A stretch of DNA of 22,536 nucleotides, taken from positions 1 through 22,536 of the IMG/VR virus record IMGVR_UViG_3300028197_000973; one strand, written 5' to 3'. The DNA is from a virus. A model generated the notes under the pieces. That model was given only the letters and a program-made list of their open reading frames with translations, had not been told where the DNA came from and made no database searches. The translations under genes and the position numbers were made by a program. Shown piece after piece: positions 422 to 18,811 of the stretch; position 1 is the stretch's first letter; every line of letters begins with the position of its first letter.

Positions 422-1918
422 ATGTCTGAAGAAAAAGAAGTAAAGAATATTGAGTTTGAACTCAAAGCTGAAGGTGAATCCAAGGGTCAAGTAAAAGCTG
501 TATTTTCAGTTTTCAACAGCCTTGACAGTGACGGTGATGTTGTATTACCAGATGCTGTAAAATCAGGTTTTAAATCAGGTGATGTACCTATGGTTTGGTC
601 TCACAAATGGGATATGCCAATCGGCAAAGGTAAGATTGTAAAAGATAAAGACAAAGCTACTTTTGAGGGCAACTTCTTTATGGATACTGAATCAGGAAAA
701 GAAGCATACAACCTTGTTAAAGGAATGGGAGATCTGCAACAATGGTCTTTCGGTTTTAGAGTAAATGATTCTGAGTATGGAAAATTTAAAAAAGACGCAA
801 GTCAAGATGAACAAGATGTAAGATATCTCAAAGACTTGTCAGTTTATGAAGTCAGCCCAGTTTTAGTTGGTGCTAATCAAGAAACTTTTACGATGGCGAT
901 CAAGAGTGATAAAGAAACAGAAGAAAAACTAGTGCAATCTATATCCATATCTGAGGAAAATGATTCTGAAGTAAAGGAAGAAAAAGCTGCACTAGCAAAA
1001 GATACTTTTGATAATCCAGGTGAAGCAATGGAAAGATCTAAAGAACTTTCTTGTGCAATAGGTATGCATACGCATAAATTAGATGATGGCGAAGAAGTAT
1101 TTATGCCATGTAAAACACATACCGAGTATGAAGCTACTTTGGAAAGCGCAAAAGGTCATACACCTCAACACACATCAATGCAAGCTTTAGGTCAAATAGC
1201 AGAAGATCTAAAACAGATTTTAAGCAACATGCCCAAAGATGAAAATGCAGAAATGCCAAGTTGGTGGGTTGACAAGCTTACAGATGTAGCGAAAGAAGTA
1301 AACGAAATAAGAGATTTACTACTTGATCCAAAAGCAAAAGCTGATGATCAAGAAAAGGTTTCAGAAAAGAGTGCCAGCGTGCAAGGCAAACGCTTTTCTG
1401 ATGAGGTAAAAGATGTTCTTGCAGCATTAAATAACCTCGTTGCCAGAGTTCAATCTATAGGAGAACTCAGGAAAAAGAATGGTAGGAAGTTGGGAGCGTC
1501 AGCGACAGAGGCTCTCAGACAAGTTCAAGAAAGTGTCTCTGATGCTTTTGATGAACTAGATAAATTCGTAGACGAATTTGGAACGGAGGGTGCATTGGAA
1601 ACCGATGTAGTAGAAGAAGCTGAAGCTCAACTTAATGTTGATGCAGAGGCAGAAGTAGAAGCTCCAGCGGAAGCTGAAGTTGAAATAGAGGAAACAGTTG
1701 CAGAAGTTCCTGTTGAGGAAACTCAAGAAGAACCAGAAGCAGTAGTTGAATCAGATCCAACTGAAGTAGAAGAGGGTGCTTTAGCAGAAGCTTTAATACA
1801 AGCTGAAGCTACAGAAGTCGAAGTTGACAATGAGCTTGACGATCTATGGTTAGACAGCCAACAGATTGTTACTGACTCAATATTAACCGACATAGAAATA
1901 GAAAACGAGAATATTTAG
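422..1918 (+). CDS. HK97-type prohead protease (peptidase U35 family) with long C-terminal extension
   Basis: Capsid maturation protease that cleaves scaffold and capsid subunits inside the prohead. The first ~160 of 498 residues look like the HK97 gp4/U35 fold. Candidate catalytic residues are His61 (WSHKWD), Ser109 (QQWSFGF) and Glu143 (VYEVSPV, with the usual LVGAN following). Family members are usually near 200 residues; here about 330 more follow. They include a Cys/His-rich segment (C211, H216, H218, C230, H233, with the phrase FMPCKTH), a helical region around 240-390, and a very acidic Glu/Val/Ala-rich stretch (~400-465). The tail may act as scaffold or guide the enzyme into the prohead (inference). 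GAGGAG (403-408) lies 13 bases before the ATG, a long spacing, but an in-frame ATG at 401 hits a stop after four codons, so 422 stands. The capsid gene follows directly. Confidence 0.88.
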   Translation: MSEEKEVKNIEFELKAEGESKGQVKAVFSVFNSLDSDGDVVLPDAVKSGFKSGDVPMVWSHKWDMPIGKGKIVKDKDKATFEGNFFMDTESGKEAYNLVKGMGDLQQWSFGFRVNDSEYGKFKKDASQDEQDVRYLKDLSVYEVSPVLVGANQETFTMAIKSDKETEEKLVQSISISEENDSEVKEEKAALAKDTFDNPGEAMERSKELSCAIGMHTHKLDDGEEVFMPCKTHTEYEATLESAKGHTPQHTSMQALGQIAEDLKQILSNMPKDENAEMPSWWVDKLTDVAKEVNEIRDLLLDPKAKADDQEKVSEKSASVQGKRFSDEVKDVLAALNNLVARVQSIGELRKKNGRKLGASATEALRQVQESVSDAFDELDKFVDEFGTEGALETDVVEEAEAQLNVDAEAEVEAPAEAEVEIEETVAEVPVEETQEEPEAVVESDPTEVEEGALAEALIQAEATEVEVDNELDDLWLDSQQIVTDSILTDIEIENENI

Positions 1919-1927
1919 GAGAAACGA

Positions 1928-3166
1928 ATGGAAATTAAAACAATTCGTGAGCAAATAGTTGCAAAGTCCGAAGAACTCAAAGGTCTCTTTACAGAGATTG
2001 AGGGTCAAGAAGGACCATCTACTCCAGAACAAAAGAATGCCGTCATTGACAGAAATGGCGAACTTTCTTCTTTAAGAGATGATCTTAAAGTAGCTGAAGC
2101 TAAGTCTAAACTAGACGCTTCAGGTGGAGCAGTTGCAAGTATCCCTACCCCATCAGGAAATGAAGCACCAGCTTCTTTCGGAGCAGAGGTACTCAAATCA
2201 GCAGCTTACAAAGCTTACACAGAAAACGGCGCTAAGAACATACAGTCAACAGTGCCATTTGAGTTAAAGACAAACTTAACAACTACAGGATATCCACCAG
2301 AGTCCTTGAGACAACCTGGAATGTTGGAAACAGCATTAAGAAATCCTGATTCAGTTATTAATTTGTTCGATCAAATACAAACTGATCAAAATGCATTCGT
2401 GTATCTTGAGGAAACTACTTTCACTAACAACTCAGCTGAAGCCGCAGAGGCAGCAGCAGTTGGTGAAGCAGCTCTCGCATTTACCGAAAGAACTGCAACA
2501 GTATCAAAACTAGGTGTTAATATCCCAGTTACTGATGAGTTGATGCAGGATGTTTCTGGTCTTGAGGGATACTTAAACTCACGACTACAAACAATGGTCA
2601 AATTAAGATTAGACGGTCAGCTAATAGCTGGCAATGGTACTTCACCAAACCTTGAAGGTATCTTAGATGCAGGAAAATCCAGTGTTGGAACAACTGCTTT
2701 CGGATCCTACGCAGGTGGTTTGGGAAGAATTGGTGCTATCTATGGAGCGATCACATCTATTAGAGTGAACGCTTTCACAGAACCAGATGCAATAGTTATT
2801 CATCCAAATGATTGGGCGCAAATCGTCCTTCAATTAGATGCTGACTTTGCTGGTACAGCAGCTGAGGGATACACTGCGAAATCACCTGTATTTATGAGTG
2901 CAGGCGGATTTGGTGGCGGTGTCGCTAACCAACTTTGGGGATTGAAAGTTGTTCCATCAACAGCAATCGCTGAAGGTACTATCTTAGTTGGTAAGTTCGG
3001 TGGCGGAGAAGCAGCACATGTCGTAGTAAGACAAGGAATGGACATCGCAGTAAGTGATAGTCATGGTGATAACTTTACAAAGAATATCATGGTGATGAGA
3101 GCTACTATGAGAGTCGGTTTCCCTGTTTACAGGCAAGCAGCTTTCCACAAGATCACAAGCGCTTAA
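1928..3166 (+). CDS. HK97-fold major capsid protein
   Basis: Forms the icosahedral shell. Its 412 residues follow the HK97 gp5 plan. An N-terminal charged helical delta-like domain (~1-65, with SEELKGLFTEIEGQ and ELSSLRDDLK) serves as built-in scaffold and is normally removed by the protease. Next come a Gly/Ala/Pro linker and the shell domain, with the E-loop region around 150-190 (VYLEETTFTNN, Ala-rich loop), the spine helix (DELMQDVSGLEGYLNSRL), and the closing A-domain strand RVGFPVYRQAAFHKI. Length and layout are normal for a capsid protein that carries its own delta domain. AGGAGA at 1917-1922 overlaps the protease stop and lies five bases from the ATG. A hairpin terminator follows the gene, fitting separate high-level expression. 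The exact cleavage site cannot be set by eye; the Gly/Ala-rich stretch near residues 65-90 is likely. Confidence 0.93.
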   Translation: MEIKTIREQIVAKSEELKGLFTEIEGQEGPSTPEQKNAVIDRNGELSSLRDDLKVAEAKSKLDASGGAVASIPTPSGNEAPASFGAEVLKSAAYKAYTENGAKNIQSTVPFELKTNLTTTGYPPESLRQPGMLETALRNPDSVINLFDQIQTDQNAFVYLEETTFTNNSAEAAEAAAVGEAALAFTERTATVSKLGVNIPVTDELMQDVSGLEGYLNSRLQTMVKLRLDGQLIAGNGTSPNLEGILDAGKSSVGTTAFGSYAGGLGRIGAIYGAITSIRVNAFTEPDAIVIHPNDWAQIVLQLDADFAGTAAEGYTAKSPVFMSAGGFGGGVANQLWGLKVVPSTAIAEGTILVGKFGGGEAAHVVVRQGMDIAVSDSHGDNFTKNIMVMRATMRVGFPVYRQAAFHKITSA

Positions 3167-3182
3167 TAGCGTTACGATTTCG

Positions 3183-3209
3183 AGTATGGGGGCTTTTAGC
3201 CCCCATATT
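3183..3209 (+). terminator. Hairpin terminator after the capsid gene
   Basis: TATGGGGGCT (3185-3194) pairs perfectly with AGCCCCCATA (3198-3207) around a TTT loop: a 10-bp GC-rich stem, extendable by a G-U and an A-U pair. The tail after it is short (ATTTG), so termination is probably partial. This would give abundant capsid mRNA with reduced read-through into the connector genes. Confidence 0.75.
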
Positions 3210-3228
3210 TGTAGGAACAGGAGAAATA

Positions 3229-3291
3229 ATGGGCTACGGTTATAACAAAAAACCTAAGAAAAAGAAAAAACCTAAAAGAACAAAAAAATAA
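3229..3291 (+). CDS. 20-residue lysine-rich peptide
   Basis: Strong AGGAGA (3219-3224) lies four bases before an ATG that opens a 20-codon frame ending in TAA at 3289-3291. The product begins MGYGYN and continues KKPKKKKKPKRTKK; 11 of 20 residues are Lys or Arg and it has no acidic residue. The site is right after the capsid terminator and before another lysine-tailed protein. A nucleic-acid-binding or capsid-interior role is a guess from charge and position. The start signal matches those of the neighbouring capsid and tail-tube genes in quality, which argues that the frame is translated rather than being a chance A-rich run. Confidence 0.55.
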   Translation: MGYGYNKKPKKKKKPKRTKK

Positions 3292-3307
3292 GTTAGGATT
3301 AATTATT

Positions 3308-3562
3308 ATGGACGAAAAATATATAAAACCAGAAAAAAGTATTTGGAAATTACAAGACGGAACAATCTTTGAAGGTGCTGTCTCAGAGCTTCCAAAAGCT
3401 AACGCTGATCTAATTGCAAAAGCAGGTTGGGAATACCCAGAGTCTTATTTAAAAGAACAAGGATGGGGATCTAAACCTAAAAAACAAGCTCCTGCAAAAA
3501 AGAAAGCAGCGCCAAAGAAAAAAGTAGAAACTAAAGCAGTTAAACCATCTGAAAATAAGTAA
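3308..3562 (+). CDS. Small head-region protein with lysine/alanine-rich tail
   Basis: An 84-residue protein of unknown function. Residues 1-55 form a small folded-looking part (IWKLQDGTIFEGAV and AGWEYPESYLKEQGWG). Residues 56-84 are a histone-H1-like tail of Lys, Ala and Pro (PAKKKAAPKKK), with 12 lysines in about 29 residues. AGGA at 3295-3298 lies nine bases before the ATG, and the stop at 3560-3562 overlaps the AAGGAG of the next gene. Between the capsid and connector genes, phages often carry decoration or minor head proteins; the basic tail would suit contact with packaged DNA (inference). Confidence 0.8.
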   Translation: MDEKYIKPEKSIWKLQDGTIFEGAVSELPKANADLIAKAGWEYPESYLKEQGWGSKPKKQAPAKKKAAPKKKVETKAVKPSENK

Positions 3563-3571
3563 GGAGTTAAA

Positions 3572-4210
3572 ATGGCTCTTTGTTCTTATTCTGATGTTGA
3601 AGCTATAGTCGGAATTGACTTTAGTTCTACAGTACAAACATCAATAACAAATAATTTTATTGCGTACTCTGATAGGGTAATTAAAACCTATATTGGGTAC
3701 GACATAGAACAGTCAAATCAAACTGAAGTTCTTTTTGGAAATAACATGAGAGAGCTTAGTTTGAAACATCTACCAGTTAATTCTATTACCTCTGTAACTG
3801 AAGATGGCAATGTTTTATCAGAGGGAAATACTAATGAATATGTATTTCATGAAAATGGTCGACTAGAGAAAGTACTTGGCAGATGGTCAGGATCCAAACC
3901 TAAAAACATTACAATAGTTTACAATGCTGGTTACTCAACAATTCCTGAAGATATAAGGTTTACAAGTGCAAGGATTTCTGCCAGAATGGTCTTGTCGGCA
4001 TTAAATTTAGGAAGCCAAGCCAAACCAGGTGCGGTTGACACACATTTATCCGACTCAACAGATGGGGCTGACATGTCAGTAGTATTACAAGAGCGAATTG
4101 GAGATTTAACAGTTCAATTTGCTGATCCTTTAGCTTATTTTGACGGCGATCTATTAAAGTCATCAGATAAGTTATTACTATCACCTTATAAGAAACAGGT
4201 CTTGGTGTAA
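3572..4210 (+). CDS. Head-tail connector protein (HK97 gp6-like adaptor)
   Basis: This 212-residue protein resembles the gp6/gp15 adaptor that forms a ring under the portal. Typical signs are the N-terminal helix-forming segment (CSYSDVEAIVGIDF), a helix with DRVIKTYIGYDI, the strand phrase LKHLPVNSITSV, the pattern NITIVYNAGYSTIPEDIRFTS, and the C-terminal LLSPYKK. The call rests on this order of motifs and on position between capsid and head-closure genes. AAGGAG (3561-3566) lies five bases before the ATG. The stop shares its last A with the ATG of the next small gene (TAATG). The product is slightly longer than many family members because of a segment near residues 150-185. Confidence 0.75.
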   Translation: MALCSYSDVEAIVGIDFSSTVQTSITNNFIAYSDRVIKTYIGYDIEQSNQTEVLFGNNMRELSLKHLPVNSITSVTEDGNVLSEGNTNEYVFHENGRLEKVLGRWSGSKPKNITIVYNAGYSTIPEDIRFTSARISARMVLSALNLGSQAKPGAVDTHLSDSTDGADMSVVLQERIGDLTVQFADPLAYFDGDLLKSSDKLLLSPYKKQVLV

Positions 4211-4380
4211 TGGATCTTGTATCCTACACATATCTCATCGGTTTTCTAAATTACCATGGTCTATTATCCGCTCACCTAAGCGAGTATGCGCGTAGCCGCG
4301 TATTTCAAGAAGAACTAGTTAACACTAAGTTTAGTGAAATTATAAAAGGTGAAACATGGAATACAAGGAAGAATCTTTAA
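4210..4380 (+). CDS. 56-residue hypothetical protein coupled to the connector gene
   Basis: The ATG at 4210 shares its A with the connector stop (TAATG). The frame stays open for 56 codons to TAA at 4378-4380, overlapping the first 25 bases of the WhiB-like gene in another frame. It fills the otherwise empty 145-base gap between the two. The product starts MDLVSYTYLIGFLNYHGLLS, is mildly hydrophobic at the N-terminus and charged afterwards (SRVFQEELVNTKFSEIIKGE). No family is recognised. An internal GC-rich hairpin (4286-4303) lies within it. Translational coupling and the exact gap-filling support it; lack of a strong ribosome-binding site is the weak point. Confidence 0.5.
   Translation: MDLVSYTYLIGFLNYHGLLSAHLSEYARSRVFQEELVNTKFSEIIKGETWNTRKNL
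4286..4303 (+). other. GC-rich RNA hairpin upstream of the WhiB-like gene
   Basis: AUGCGCG (4286-4292) can pair with CGCGUAU (4297-4303), seven pairs including one G-U, around a UAGC loop. It stands out in local AT-rich sequence, 52 bases before the WhiB-like start. No T-run follows, so it is not a standard terminator. Pausing or mRNA processing is possible but unproven. Confidence 0.3.
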
Positions 4381-4643
4381 GTAATCTCTTAAGATTACAA
4401 GAACTATGGTGGCAAGTAGACGCAAACTGTAACGACAAGGACGCTGATCTATTTTTCCCAAATCGTGGAGCTTCAACGAGAGAAGCTAAAAAAATTTGTT
4501 CTGAATGTACTGTTAAGGAACATTGTTTAGAGTATGCTATAGTGAACGCCGAAAAATTCGGCATCTGGGGTGGTCTTTCTGAAAGAGAACGCCGTAAGAT
4601 AAGAAAAGAACGAGGACTTACGAGGAAAAGATCTAGTGCCTAG
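4356..4643 (+). CDS. whiB: WhiB-like iron-sulfur transcription factor
   Basis: WhiB-like proteins bind a 4Fe-4S cluster and regulate transcription, often by contacting region 4 of the primary sigma factor; they are known from Actinobacteria and their phages. This 95-residue protein has the four cluster cysteines C25, C48, C51 and C57 (C-x22-C-x2-C-x5-C), an acidic and aromatic segment between them (DLFFP), the signature turn GIWGG (69-73), and a basic C-terminus (ERERRKIRKERGLTRKRSS) for DNA contact. AAAAGGTGA (4344-4352) lies just before the ATG. It overlaps the downstream HTH/zinc-ribbon gene by eight bases. Its place in the middle of head-tail genes is unusual and implies late expression with virion proteins (inference). 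It is the best host clue in the window. Confidence 0.92.
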   Translation: MEYKEESLSNLLRLQELWWQVDANCNDKDADLFFPNRGASTREAKKICSECTVKEHCLEYAIVNAEKFGIWGGLSERERRKIRKERGLTRKRSSA

Positions 4644-5169
4644 TAGAAAAATACCATCAGTAGAACAAGCATACGAACTCTTTAATGACGATCCTTGGCG
4701 ACCATTATCTGAGTGGGCTGAAGAGTGGGATTGTTCTCATGAAAGAGTAAGGCAACTTAGAGAACAAGCAGGTTTTGATCCTATCTCTAAAATAGATAAA
4801 GGTATAGCAATGACTGTTGTTAACAGAATTCGTAATGGTGAATATTCACTTACAGTCCGTGAACTTTATAAAGATCTACCAATTGGCCTAGAAAAGTTTT
4901 TGACATGGATGAAAGAAGAACCATCTATTTACTTAGCTGTACTTGAAGCTCAACAATGGGTAGAGAAAGAATCTTGGAACCCACCATCAAAACAATGTGC
5001 CAAATGTGCAAATGTATTGGCACCTAAAAGTTTTAACAAAACACAAAAGTATAAAGACGGTCTTCAAAAAGTATGTAAGTACTGCATGAGTAACCCTTCT
5101 GAAAAATTGCAAAAAATTAAAGATAAGAAAAAAAAATTACAAGAACTTAAGAACAAGCTAGATAACTGA
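4636..5169 (+). CDS. Putative DNA-binding protein: HTH plus zinc ribbon
   Basis: A 177-residue protein starting with GTG; GAGGA (4622-4626) lies nine bases upstream and the start overlaps the end of the WhiB-like gene by eight bases. Residues ~20-47 form a likely helix-turn-helix (PLSEWAEEWDCSHERVRQLREQAGF), similar in style to sigma region 4 or small repressors. Residues ~72-95 may form a second helical domain. C121-x2-C124 and C147-x2-C150 make a zinc ribbon with the phrase KSFNKTQKYKDGLQKVCKYC, a knuckle often seen at the front of phage HNH endonucleases, but no HNH catalytic motif follows. The protein ends in a lysine-rich helix. Pairing with WhiB suggests a joint regulatory role; the target is unknown. 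Confidence 0.65.
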   Translation: MPSRKIPSVEQAYELFNDDPWRPLSEWAEEWDCSHERVRQLREQAGFDPISKIDKGIAMTVVNRIRNGEYSLTVRELYKDLPIGLEKFLTWMKEEPSIYLAVLEAQQWVEKESWNPPSKQCAKCANVLAPKSFNKTQKYKDGLQKVCKYCMSNPSEKLQKIKDKKKKLQELKNKLDN

Positions 5170-12826: not shown

Positions 12827-12949
12827 ATGATAGGAAACAAAGAAAAACATTACCTAAAATCTTGTAAATCAGATTTTAAATGTGGTAATTATTTTTATGG
12901 ACCTAAATATCAATACTGTGAAAAATGTAGAGCAAAGGATATGTGCTAA
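12827..12949 (+). CDS. 40-residue cysteine-rich mini-protein (zinc-ribbon-like)
   Basis: The ATG begins directly after the upstream TAA (12824-12826) and the frame ends at TAA 12947-12949, whose last A is the first base of the next ATG. The gene thus fills the gap exactly. The product carries cysteines at 13, 19, 31, 34 and 40 (C-x5-C-x11-C-x2-C-x5-C) among aromatic and lysine residues (CGNYFYGPKYQYCEKC), which fits a small zinc-binding fold. It contains the AAAGGA (12934-12939) that serves the next gene. Function is unknown; a metal-stabilised tail-tip or assembly protein, or a small regulator, are options. Confidence 0.6.
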   Translation: MIGNKEKHYLKSCKSDFKCGNYFYGPKYQYCEKCRAKDMC

Positions 12950-17204: not shown

Positions 17205-18811
17205 TGGCAGCAGCAGACGGATTTCATGTAGATAGTAACGGAAACCTTTGGTTAGGTTCTAACCGAGAAACTTTCGATGCAACAACTCGTTCAGAGGCAC
17301 CTTTTTATGTTTATGCTAACGGTAACATGGTTGCTAATTCTGGTACCTTTGCAGGTACATTATCTTCTGGAATTTCTATATCTGCTCCGGCAATAACTGG
17401 AGGAACTATATCCGGTACTAGTGGTACTTTTACTGGAAATATCTCTGGTGCTAGTGGTACTTTTACAGGTGATTTATCTGGTTCTGATATAACTGGTGGA
17501 ACAGTAAATATTGGAAGCGGAACATTTACTGTTGCTTCATCTGGAGCTATGGTTGCAACCTCTGCAACTATTACAGGTGCAATAACAGGAATATCTGGTG
17601 CTATTGGTGGTATCTCAATTAACACTGGAGATATACAAGCAAACTATTCAGCAGGGAGTACTGGATTTAAAATAACTAGTAGTGGTGGTGCAGAGTTTAA
17701 TGGACCAATATTAACATTTGGTAAAGTTGTAGGCTCACCATCGTCTACAAATTCAATTGAAATTGGTGATGCTAAATTGTATAATGCTGATATTAGCTCA
17801 ACAAGCTCTTTAGTTTCAACAAAGTCATTTATCGTTACTCCTGATGGAGATGAAGATAATCCATCTCTTGCTATAGACGGACAACACGGAACATTGGGAT
17901 TTTTTGTAGATGTACCTTTAAGTGGTGTATCAAGAATGCAGATAACAAATGGTGATAATAATGTTGCATCTTGGAGTACAGCAAATAGTGATTTTACAGT
18001 TAATGATAAGTTAGTTTTAGGTGGTTCAATTCAAGTAGGTGGTTCAACAGGTGGTAATAGTCAATACATTGGAAAAAATTCAAGCGGTACATTAGGTTTT
18101 CATACTTTACCTTCTGGTAATGACCACCCAGATAGCGACCATAGTTTTTCAGCTACTAACCACAACCACAATAGTGCTTACTACTCAGCTTCTGCTGGTT
18201 CAGTTCTTGCAGGTGCTTTGAGTTCCCATACAGGACATGCTACTTCTTTAAGTATAAATAGTAATGTTTCTAATAATAACTCTGGTGGTTTATTTGTAAC
18301 AGCAGTATCTGGTTTAGGAATCACAAGAACAAATATTGCAGGTACGACAATGGACACTCAAAAAGTTCGTCCTAGACAAGACCAAGCATATGCACTTGGA
18401 GAGTCTGGAAGAAGATACACTGTAGGTTATTTTCAATTTGGTACAAGTACTTCTGATGAAAGACTAAAAGAAAACATAGAAGAATTAAATTTAGGTCTTG
18501 ATTTTATTAATAAACTTCAGCCTAAGAAATACAATTGGACAACTGAAATAATTACAGATGATAACGGTGAAGAAATAATTAAAAGAGGCGACATAGCAAA
18601 TATTGATATGTTTGGTTTTATGGCTCAAGATGTATTGGCAATTGATGATTTAAATGATGATGTTACTTATGGTATAGCTAGACACGACACTGAAGAAGAT
18701 AGTTATGATTTATCATATGAGAATATGATTGCTCCTTTAGTAAAAGCGGTACAAGAACTCTCAGCTAAGAATGATGAGCTACAATCAAGAATAGAGGAAC
18801 TGGAAGGATAA
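17204..18811 (+). CDS. Tail fibre with C-terminal S74 intramolecular chaperone
   Basis: A 535-residue trimeric fibre. Residues ~40-170 contain short Gly/Ser/Thr repeats of the type SGTFTG, suited to a beta-helical shaft. A histidine-rich stretch at ~306-330 (DHPDSDHSFSATNHNHNSAY) carries an HxH motif like the metal-binding motifs of T4 gp37-type fibres. From Ser417 begins a peptidase S74 domain: S417-D-E-R-L-K422 has the Ser and Lys spacing of the endosialidase catalytic dyad, followed by FINKLQPKKYNW, FGFMAQDV and the final helix MIAPLVKAVQEL. The family folds the trimer and then cuts itself off before the Ser, leaving a mature fibre of about 416 residues (inference from the family). The ATG shares one base with the hub stop. 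Confidence 0.88.
   Translation: MAAADGFHVDSNGNLWLGSNRETFDATTRSEAPFYVYANGNMVANSGTFAGTLSSGISISAPAITGGTISGTSGTFTGNISGASGTFTGDLSGSDITGGTVNIGSGTFTVASSGAMVATSATITGAITGISGAIGGISINTGDIQANYSAGSTGFKITSSGGAEFNGPILTFGKVVGSPSSTNSIEIGDAKLYNADISSTSSLVSTKSFIVTPDGDEDNPSLAIDGQHGTLGFFVDVPLSGVSRMQITNGDNNVASWSTANSDFTVNDKLVLGGSIQVGGSTGGNSQYIGKNSSGTLGFHTLPSGNDHPDSDHSFSATNHNHNSAYYSASAGSVLAGALSSHTGHATSLSINSNVSNNNSGGLFVTAVSGLGITRTNIAGTTMDTQKVRPRQDQAYALGESGRRYTVGYFQFGTSTSDERLKENIEELNLGLDFINKLQPKKYNWTTEIITDDNGEEIIKRGDIANIDMFGFMAQDVLAIDDLNDDVTYGIARHDTEEDSYDLSYENMIAPLVKAVQELSAKNDELQSRIEELEG
17417..17482 (+). repeat. 33-bp tandem repeat, two copies, inside the fibre gene
   Basis: CTAGTGGTACTTTTAC starts at 17417 and again at 17450. 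Each unit encodes an 11-residue SGTFTG-type module (SGTFTGNISGA then SGTFTGDLSGS). The repeat is in phase with the gene and could let shaft length change by slippage. Confidence 0.65.

Follow-up and report, generated by a model that had tools for sequence, protein, structure and literature searches.

Core protein X, or mu, of adenovirus is 19 amino acids long in its mature form and occurs in 100-300 copies per virion. It is rich in arginine and is cut from a 79-residue precursor by the viral protease (PMC7998265). Phages of Ca. Actinomarina that carry WhiB genes are described in PMC7771536 and PMC3861242. The stretch of DNA analysed here (the window, 22,536 nucleotides) is a 22.5-kb viral record with genes for a protease, an HK97-type capsid protein, a head-tail adaptor and a WhiB protein. 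Its post-capsid region contains a 20-codon frame for a very basic peptide and a gene for an 84-residue protein.

Organization of the locus

The features of the capsid region of the window are as follows.

422 to 1918, plus strand: prohead protease (Peptidase_S78) whose C-terminal tail is scaffold-like and very acidic (profile matches, tail charge)
1928 to 3166, plus strand: HK97-type major capsid protein (phrog_10, E 3.8e-37; PF05065, E 1.5e-34)
about 3181 to 3211, plus strand: strong hairpin 3' of the capsid gene, a terminator or processing stem (z -4.7; same position in relatives)
3219 to 3224, plus strand: AGGAGA ribosome-binding site of the micro-ORF (sequence)
3229 to 3291, plus strand: 20-residue cationic micro-gene, MGYGYNKKPKKKKKPKRTKK (ORF, selection, shuffles)
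3308 to 3562, plus strand: 84-residue protein of the post-capsid slot, in which a small domain at the N-terminus is followed by a lysine-rich, disordered tail with ETKAVKPSENK at its end
3572 to 4210, plus strand: head-tail adaptor, or connector (phrog_442, E 5e-18)
4356 to 4643, plus strand: WhiB-family regulator (PF02467, E 1.5e-24)

The capsid stop codon is followed by the hairpin, AGGAGA, the 20-codon ORF, the 84-residue ORF and the adaptor gene, so that both small ORFs lie between the hairpin and the phrog_442 adaptor, as the first-pass annotation had placed them. The hairpin stretch has an MFE of -23.7 (z -4.7), and equal stability was reached in none of 200 shuffles. Its U-tract is short (ATATTTGTAGG) and a terminator scan did not flag it; "terminator" is a fair name for it, yet unproven.

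The WhiB gene and the published WhiB-bearing phages suggest that the host is an actinobacterium, for instance Ca. Actinomarina. The assignment leans on these two sources because none of the 20 stretches in the genome collection that matched a pattern for capsid relatives was confirmed. The connector module, from the adaptor to a possible head-closure gene, also holds WhiB together with a gene whose zinc region weakly resembles endonuclease VII/Lar (window 4356-5169). A 40-residue cysteine-rich ORF (CKSDFKCGNYFYGPKYQYCEKCRAKDMC; 12827-12949), zinc-finger-like by eye, lies among the tail genes, and the tail protein that ends within 18450-18811 has an end that looks, by eye, like an S74-type self-cleaving chaperone (SDERLKENI..).

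The 20-codon micro-ORF as a gene

A 20-codon frame with an AGGAGA start signal and 11 basic residues had been noted on first inspection, and its boundaries and composition were confirmed at 3229-3291. The peptide contains 10 Lys and one Arg (55% K/R), no Asp or Glu, and has a net charge of +11. One may object that lysine codons are A-rich, that the region is AT-rich and that many relatives lack the frame, and the ORF might then be an A-rich stretch that reads as lysine by chance. Dinucleotide shuffles of 3167-3307 were searched for ORFs of 18-30 residues with at least 45% K/R, no Asp or Glu, and a start signal. No comparable ORF appeared in 20,000 shuffles, and six of 20,000 yielded one when the start signal was not demanded.

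A capsid search gave 60 loci, of which 55 had the 3' end of the capsid gene on the contig; in the other five (L037, L040, L055, L058 and L060) the capsid gene runs off the contig. A basic micro-ORF was found at the equivalent place, with the capsid gene on one side and the 84-residue and adaptor genes on the other, in 34 of the 55 close relatives. It was absent in 20, and one (L022) could not be read, having no readable downstream gene. The copies are 19-24 codons long, the basic versions contain no Asp or Glu, and most retain the start signal. Twenty-six relatives have a lysine form (e.g., MPYHYGMRKPKKKKKPKKRKR) and eight, all of the clade at 52-55% identity, an arginine form (e.g., MPKGRGYGRTTRRTAPKKRGSRRR) that uses mixed codons. 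Judged from these two forms, the basic charge is maintained while Lys and Arg are exchanged. Many of the loci are near-identical contigs, and 17 distinct DNA versions of the micro-ORF were obtained, including that of the window.

Four pairs of micro-ORFs, picked as near and ungapped rather than at random, differed by 17 synonymous and 9 non-synonymous changes. Neutral placement gave on average 6.0 synonymous changes of 26, and 17 or more were reached in none of 20,000 simulations. One comparison of versions separated by a single change was non-synonymous only. The shuffles, the copies in relatives and the synonymous excess together indicate that the micro-ORF is very probably translated and under purifying selection. 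The selection and shuffle results contradict a chance reading of an A-rich stretch, as do the mixed codons of the arginine form and the start signal kept in most copies, and we regard that reading as very improbable.

Searches of PHROGs and Pfam with the 20-residue peptide gave no match, which says little for a query of this length. The ribosomal protein bTHX was considered for its size and charge; it gave no Pfam match to the peptide, a comparison with little power for 20 low-complexity residues. A tblastn search with an arginine-form peptide against 50,697 phage records was also negative, within the limit that low-complexity masking sets on such a search. No description of the peptide was found in the literature searched, of which coverage was partial; large catalogues of small genes exist, and that of Fremin et al. 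2022 reportedly covers small genes in phage genomes and may list the peptide. The start signal in most copies, the in-frame lengths, the Lys-to-Arg exchange and the synonymous excess strongly support the frame as a real and probably undescribed gene. Whatever its function, it shows clearly how standard annotation skips a 20-codon gene that is under selection.

Repeated loss of the micro-gene

Conservation in relatives had been proposed as the check on the frame, with equally common synonymous and non-synonymous changes as part of a refuting outcome. Such equality was not seen, although the frame itself was missing in the 20 close relatives noted above. In a second search, a capsid profile retrieved 504 relatives. 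Eighty of them were retained, and none of the 42 new ones (61-65% identity) had a micro-ORF at the post-capsid place. A capsid tree was built from 66 rows, 46 of them different, which represent the window and 65 loci; 15 of these loci came from the 42 new ones. It required at least six changes between presence and absence. One locus (L048) resembles a near-clean deletion, in which an AGGAGA start-signal-like sequence and the downstream spacer are left and the frame is gone. Two others (L021 and L010) retain DNA that can be aligned to the 3' end of the frame, which is what deletion remnants would look like. Because of these scars, the changes on the tree and the absence in relatives, the micro-gene is, on comparative evidence, dispensable and repeatedly lost. 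For the direction of change the tree by itself is not sufficient, and in some lineages the support comes from the scars.

These deletions also bear on a reading in which the product is inert and the frame is a regulatory leader, translation of the basic run slowing the ribosome and thereby adjusting expression of the 84-residue and connector genes. Basic nascent chains slow ribosomes, and the short frame follows a strong hairpin and is separated from the next gene by 16 nt. However, the downstream gene and its start signal persist where the peptide has been deleted (L048 and L052). With two further observations given below for peptides elsewhere, a leader is unlikely.

An element of roughly 50 nt (GGTAGGTTTCAAAGCGATATA...GCCACCTACC, with an outer 7-bp stem) is conserved in some relatives, where it lies about 20 nt before the start of the micro-ORF. 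It is found in L018 (6298-6355), with copies in L011, L025, L026, L029 and L092, and further in L076, L078, L081, L082, L086-L088, L090, L091, L094 and L095; in other marine viruses it precedes unrelated small genes. Two patterns for the element retrieved an identical set of 21 stretches. No match to Rfam was obtained for the loci tested, and the core of the element was not found in the window. With a two-sided change in only one pair, the element is a candidate RNA structure.

The neighboring 84-residue protein

The tail of the 84-residue protein had been called histone-H1-like in the first-pass annotation. The lysine-rich composition was upheld: residues 54-84 contain 12 Lys and have a net charge of +10, while the first 53 residues have a net charge of -3. 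The histone identity was not, as no histone family in Pfam was matched at E 0.1 by any of 25 members. DUF7302 gave a weak match to this protein (residues 34-80), its score of 17.0 bits being under the cut-off of 24.9; only two of the 25 family members matched it at E 0.1. The predicted structure was modest (pLDDT 70.5, and below 50 at residues 57-78 and 80-84). No PDB fold matched the model better than E 4.2, and the protein had no match in the 50,697 phage records.

A script recognized the 84-residue protein in 83 of 98 rows. The misses were prematurely ending contigs and the clade at 52-55% identity, in which the gene was recorded separately. A C-terminal ETKAVKP..K motif is conserved. Read from gene content, the 84-residue gene is constantly present in this slot throughout the clade, also where the micro-gene is absent, and since it persists where the 20-residue gene was lost, the two are not an obligate pair. 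The 84-residue protein would be a separate component of the slot, whose lysine-rich tail could make contacts similar to those of the peptide.

Look-alike peptides in other marine phages

A degenerate pattern consisting of a start signal, MPxH and KPKKK matched 112 viral stretches, of which 111 were analysed. A control pattern with MA replacing MP matched four, themselves tiny basic ORFs. Of the 111 ORFs, 103 have 36 codons or fewer (the longest has 62), and 48 of the 56 distinct peptides contain no Asp or Glu. Positions that the pattern left free are biased in the 56 distinct peptides, with Y3 in 30, Y5 in 35 and G6 in 27. This enrichment at the protein level argues against a regulatory leader, as does the following gene, which differs elsewhere and may be 200-350 nt away.

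Neighborhoods were labeled from the PHROGs results of example loci. By these labels, 34 of the 111 look-alikes, more than in any other classified group, follow an endolysin gene. Eighteen have the neighborhood of the window, nine lie one gene after an HK97-type capsid gene, eight after a head-morphogenesis gene, four before a scaffold gene and one after a terminase gene; 37 are unclassified, some of them near portal or terminase genes (L182, L250, L211 and L272). The head-module neighbors matched phrog_241 (head morphogenesis), phrog_206 (scaffold), phrog_1216 (portal), phrog_3717 and phrog_2 (terminase) and phrog_10 (capsid). A composition scan of loci for short basic ORFs with a start signal, which excluded ORFs overlapping long frames by at least 25 nt, yielded peptides of this kind and no others.

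These neighborhoods are relevant to the possibility that the peptide is made late to take over the host, binding RNA, the ribosome or another host target outside the particle. Its composition would serve for binding RNA no less than DNA, the look-alikes occur in varied late contexts, including after endolysin, and the gene is dispensable and patchy, as accessory genes are. Against this, every classifiable context is a structural or a lysis module; the lack of a Pfam or PHROGs family match also counts against it, though only slightly for 20 residues. We consider a take-over function possible but doubtful.

A group MPxHYG..KPKKKK was proposed, defined as free-standing ORFs of about 13-36 codons with a start signal, K/R of about 40% or more and almost no Asp or Glu. 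The window peptide fits in size, start signal, K/R share and lack of Asp and Glu. It begins MGYGYN and so lacks the MPxH motif, with which its lysine-form orthologues at the same locus mostly start (MPYH, MPRH, MPSH or MPAH). Homology between the distant look-alikes and the window peptide is not proved, because the pattern itself fixes MPxH and KPKKK and the window peptide would not match it. A scan for arginine-type peptides was not used as family evidence because it was less specific, many of its matches being a non-basic protein of 61-62 residues that starts MPKGKGYG.

Eight cultured phages were selected by their neighbor genes, and six carry an MP-starting micro-ORF (HTVC202P, HTVC026P, MED4-184, MED4-117, KBS-S-2A and S-H1); the other two, HTVC010P and HTVC112P, lack one. 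In the records, the micro-ORF lies at 29606-29674 in HTVC202P and at 30023-30106 in HTVC026P. The six micro-ORFs coincide with no annotated feature. The copies of both cyanophage pairs (four of the six carriers) are without a clear start signal, and since each pair has identical peptides, the six cases amount to about four independent ones. Behind the capsid genes of 12 cultured capsid relatives (11 and HK97), no short lysine-rich ORF with a start signal was found; the only short basic frame there, in Mwe-Yong1, has no lysine and no start signal. Small basic ORFs of another type (..PKGYHYMPDGTLMKDS..) follow endolysin in the Pelagibacter phages HTVC202P, HTVC112P and HTVC026P (L355, 3145-3255; L356, 2982-3089; L360, 3168-3278), and no annotated feature in the records matches them.

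It is conceivable, if rather doubtful, that these ORFs form an unnamed marine-phage family of cationic micro-proteins of 13-36 residues, a recurring mu-like accessory part of head assembly in phages of actinobacteria, SAR11 and cyanobacteria. Its members would be prokaryotic counterparts of mu, made by direct translation and not by cleavage of a precursor. Such a family would have been missed because annotation ignores frames so short.

A possible role in head assembly

We tentatively favor, with somewhat less than even confidence, a late gene of the head module for a disordered cationic peptide that acts electrostatically in head assembly. The peptide would be made together with the head proteins, would remain disordered and would act through its charge during assembly. 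It would most likely join the procapsid via the acidic scaffold-like tail of the protease, the incoming DNA, or both. The low-complexity protease tail (window 1526-1918) has a net charge of -46 over its last 130 residues, and all 49 distinct tails compared have net charges of -43 to -60. The protease with its acidic tail is likely a protease-scaffold fusion. With tails this acidic, the procapsid could plausibly contain a cationic partner. Tail charge showed no trend with presence of the peptide (mean -48.2 with it, n=19; -50.8 without, n=30). The absence of the peptide in 20 of 55 close relatives and in 42 of 42 at 61-65% identity counts against a head role, as does the position of the largest classified look-alike group after endolysin genes.

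The first-pass annotation had also raised neutralization of packaged DNA, and the peptide could be a protamine-like bulk counter-ion inside the capsid. It carries +11 in 20 residues, has no acidic residues and exchanges Lys and Arg, and adenovirus mu offers an analogy. For an assumed 36-kb genome, however, about 650 copies would be needed per 10% of the charge (65 per 1% of the phosphates). A T=7 shell has 415 capsid subunits, fewer than this number of peptide copies, and close relatives manage without the peptide. Bulk neutralization is thus quite unlikely. In the head-assembly reading that we favor, the peptide would instead tune assembly or packaging as an accessory factor.

Comparison with known systems

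The 84-residue protein shares its slot, from the capsid gene to the head-to-tail adaptor, with hypothetical post-capsid proteins of actinobacteriophages (e.g., Purgamenstris gp7, Lakshmi gp10 and Olliecat gp7). Several of these have low-complexity A/K tails with less lysine than the 84-residue protein. No common sequence family was found between them, and the likeness is one of position and style.

The micro-ORFs of the cultured phages resemble that of the window in being short (22-27 residues), lysine-rich and in a head or post-endolysin position, whereas their hosts and neighbors differ. These carriers make the question directly testable. If the peptides are translated and bound to virions, a class of head-module genes would be missing from reference genomes, including those of well-used cultured phages.

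The window peptide has the composition of mu and protamine-like proteins, being short, very basic and free of acidic residues. Like mu, it is near 20 residues long and encoded late with structural genes. Unlike mu, it would be translated directly as 20 amino acids, and no homology is claimed. Adenovirus mu may serve as its closest working analogue, and if the peptide is translated and virion-bound, ocean phages would equip their heads with a cationic peptide that resembles mu.
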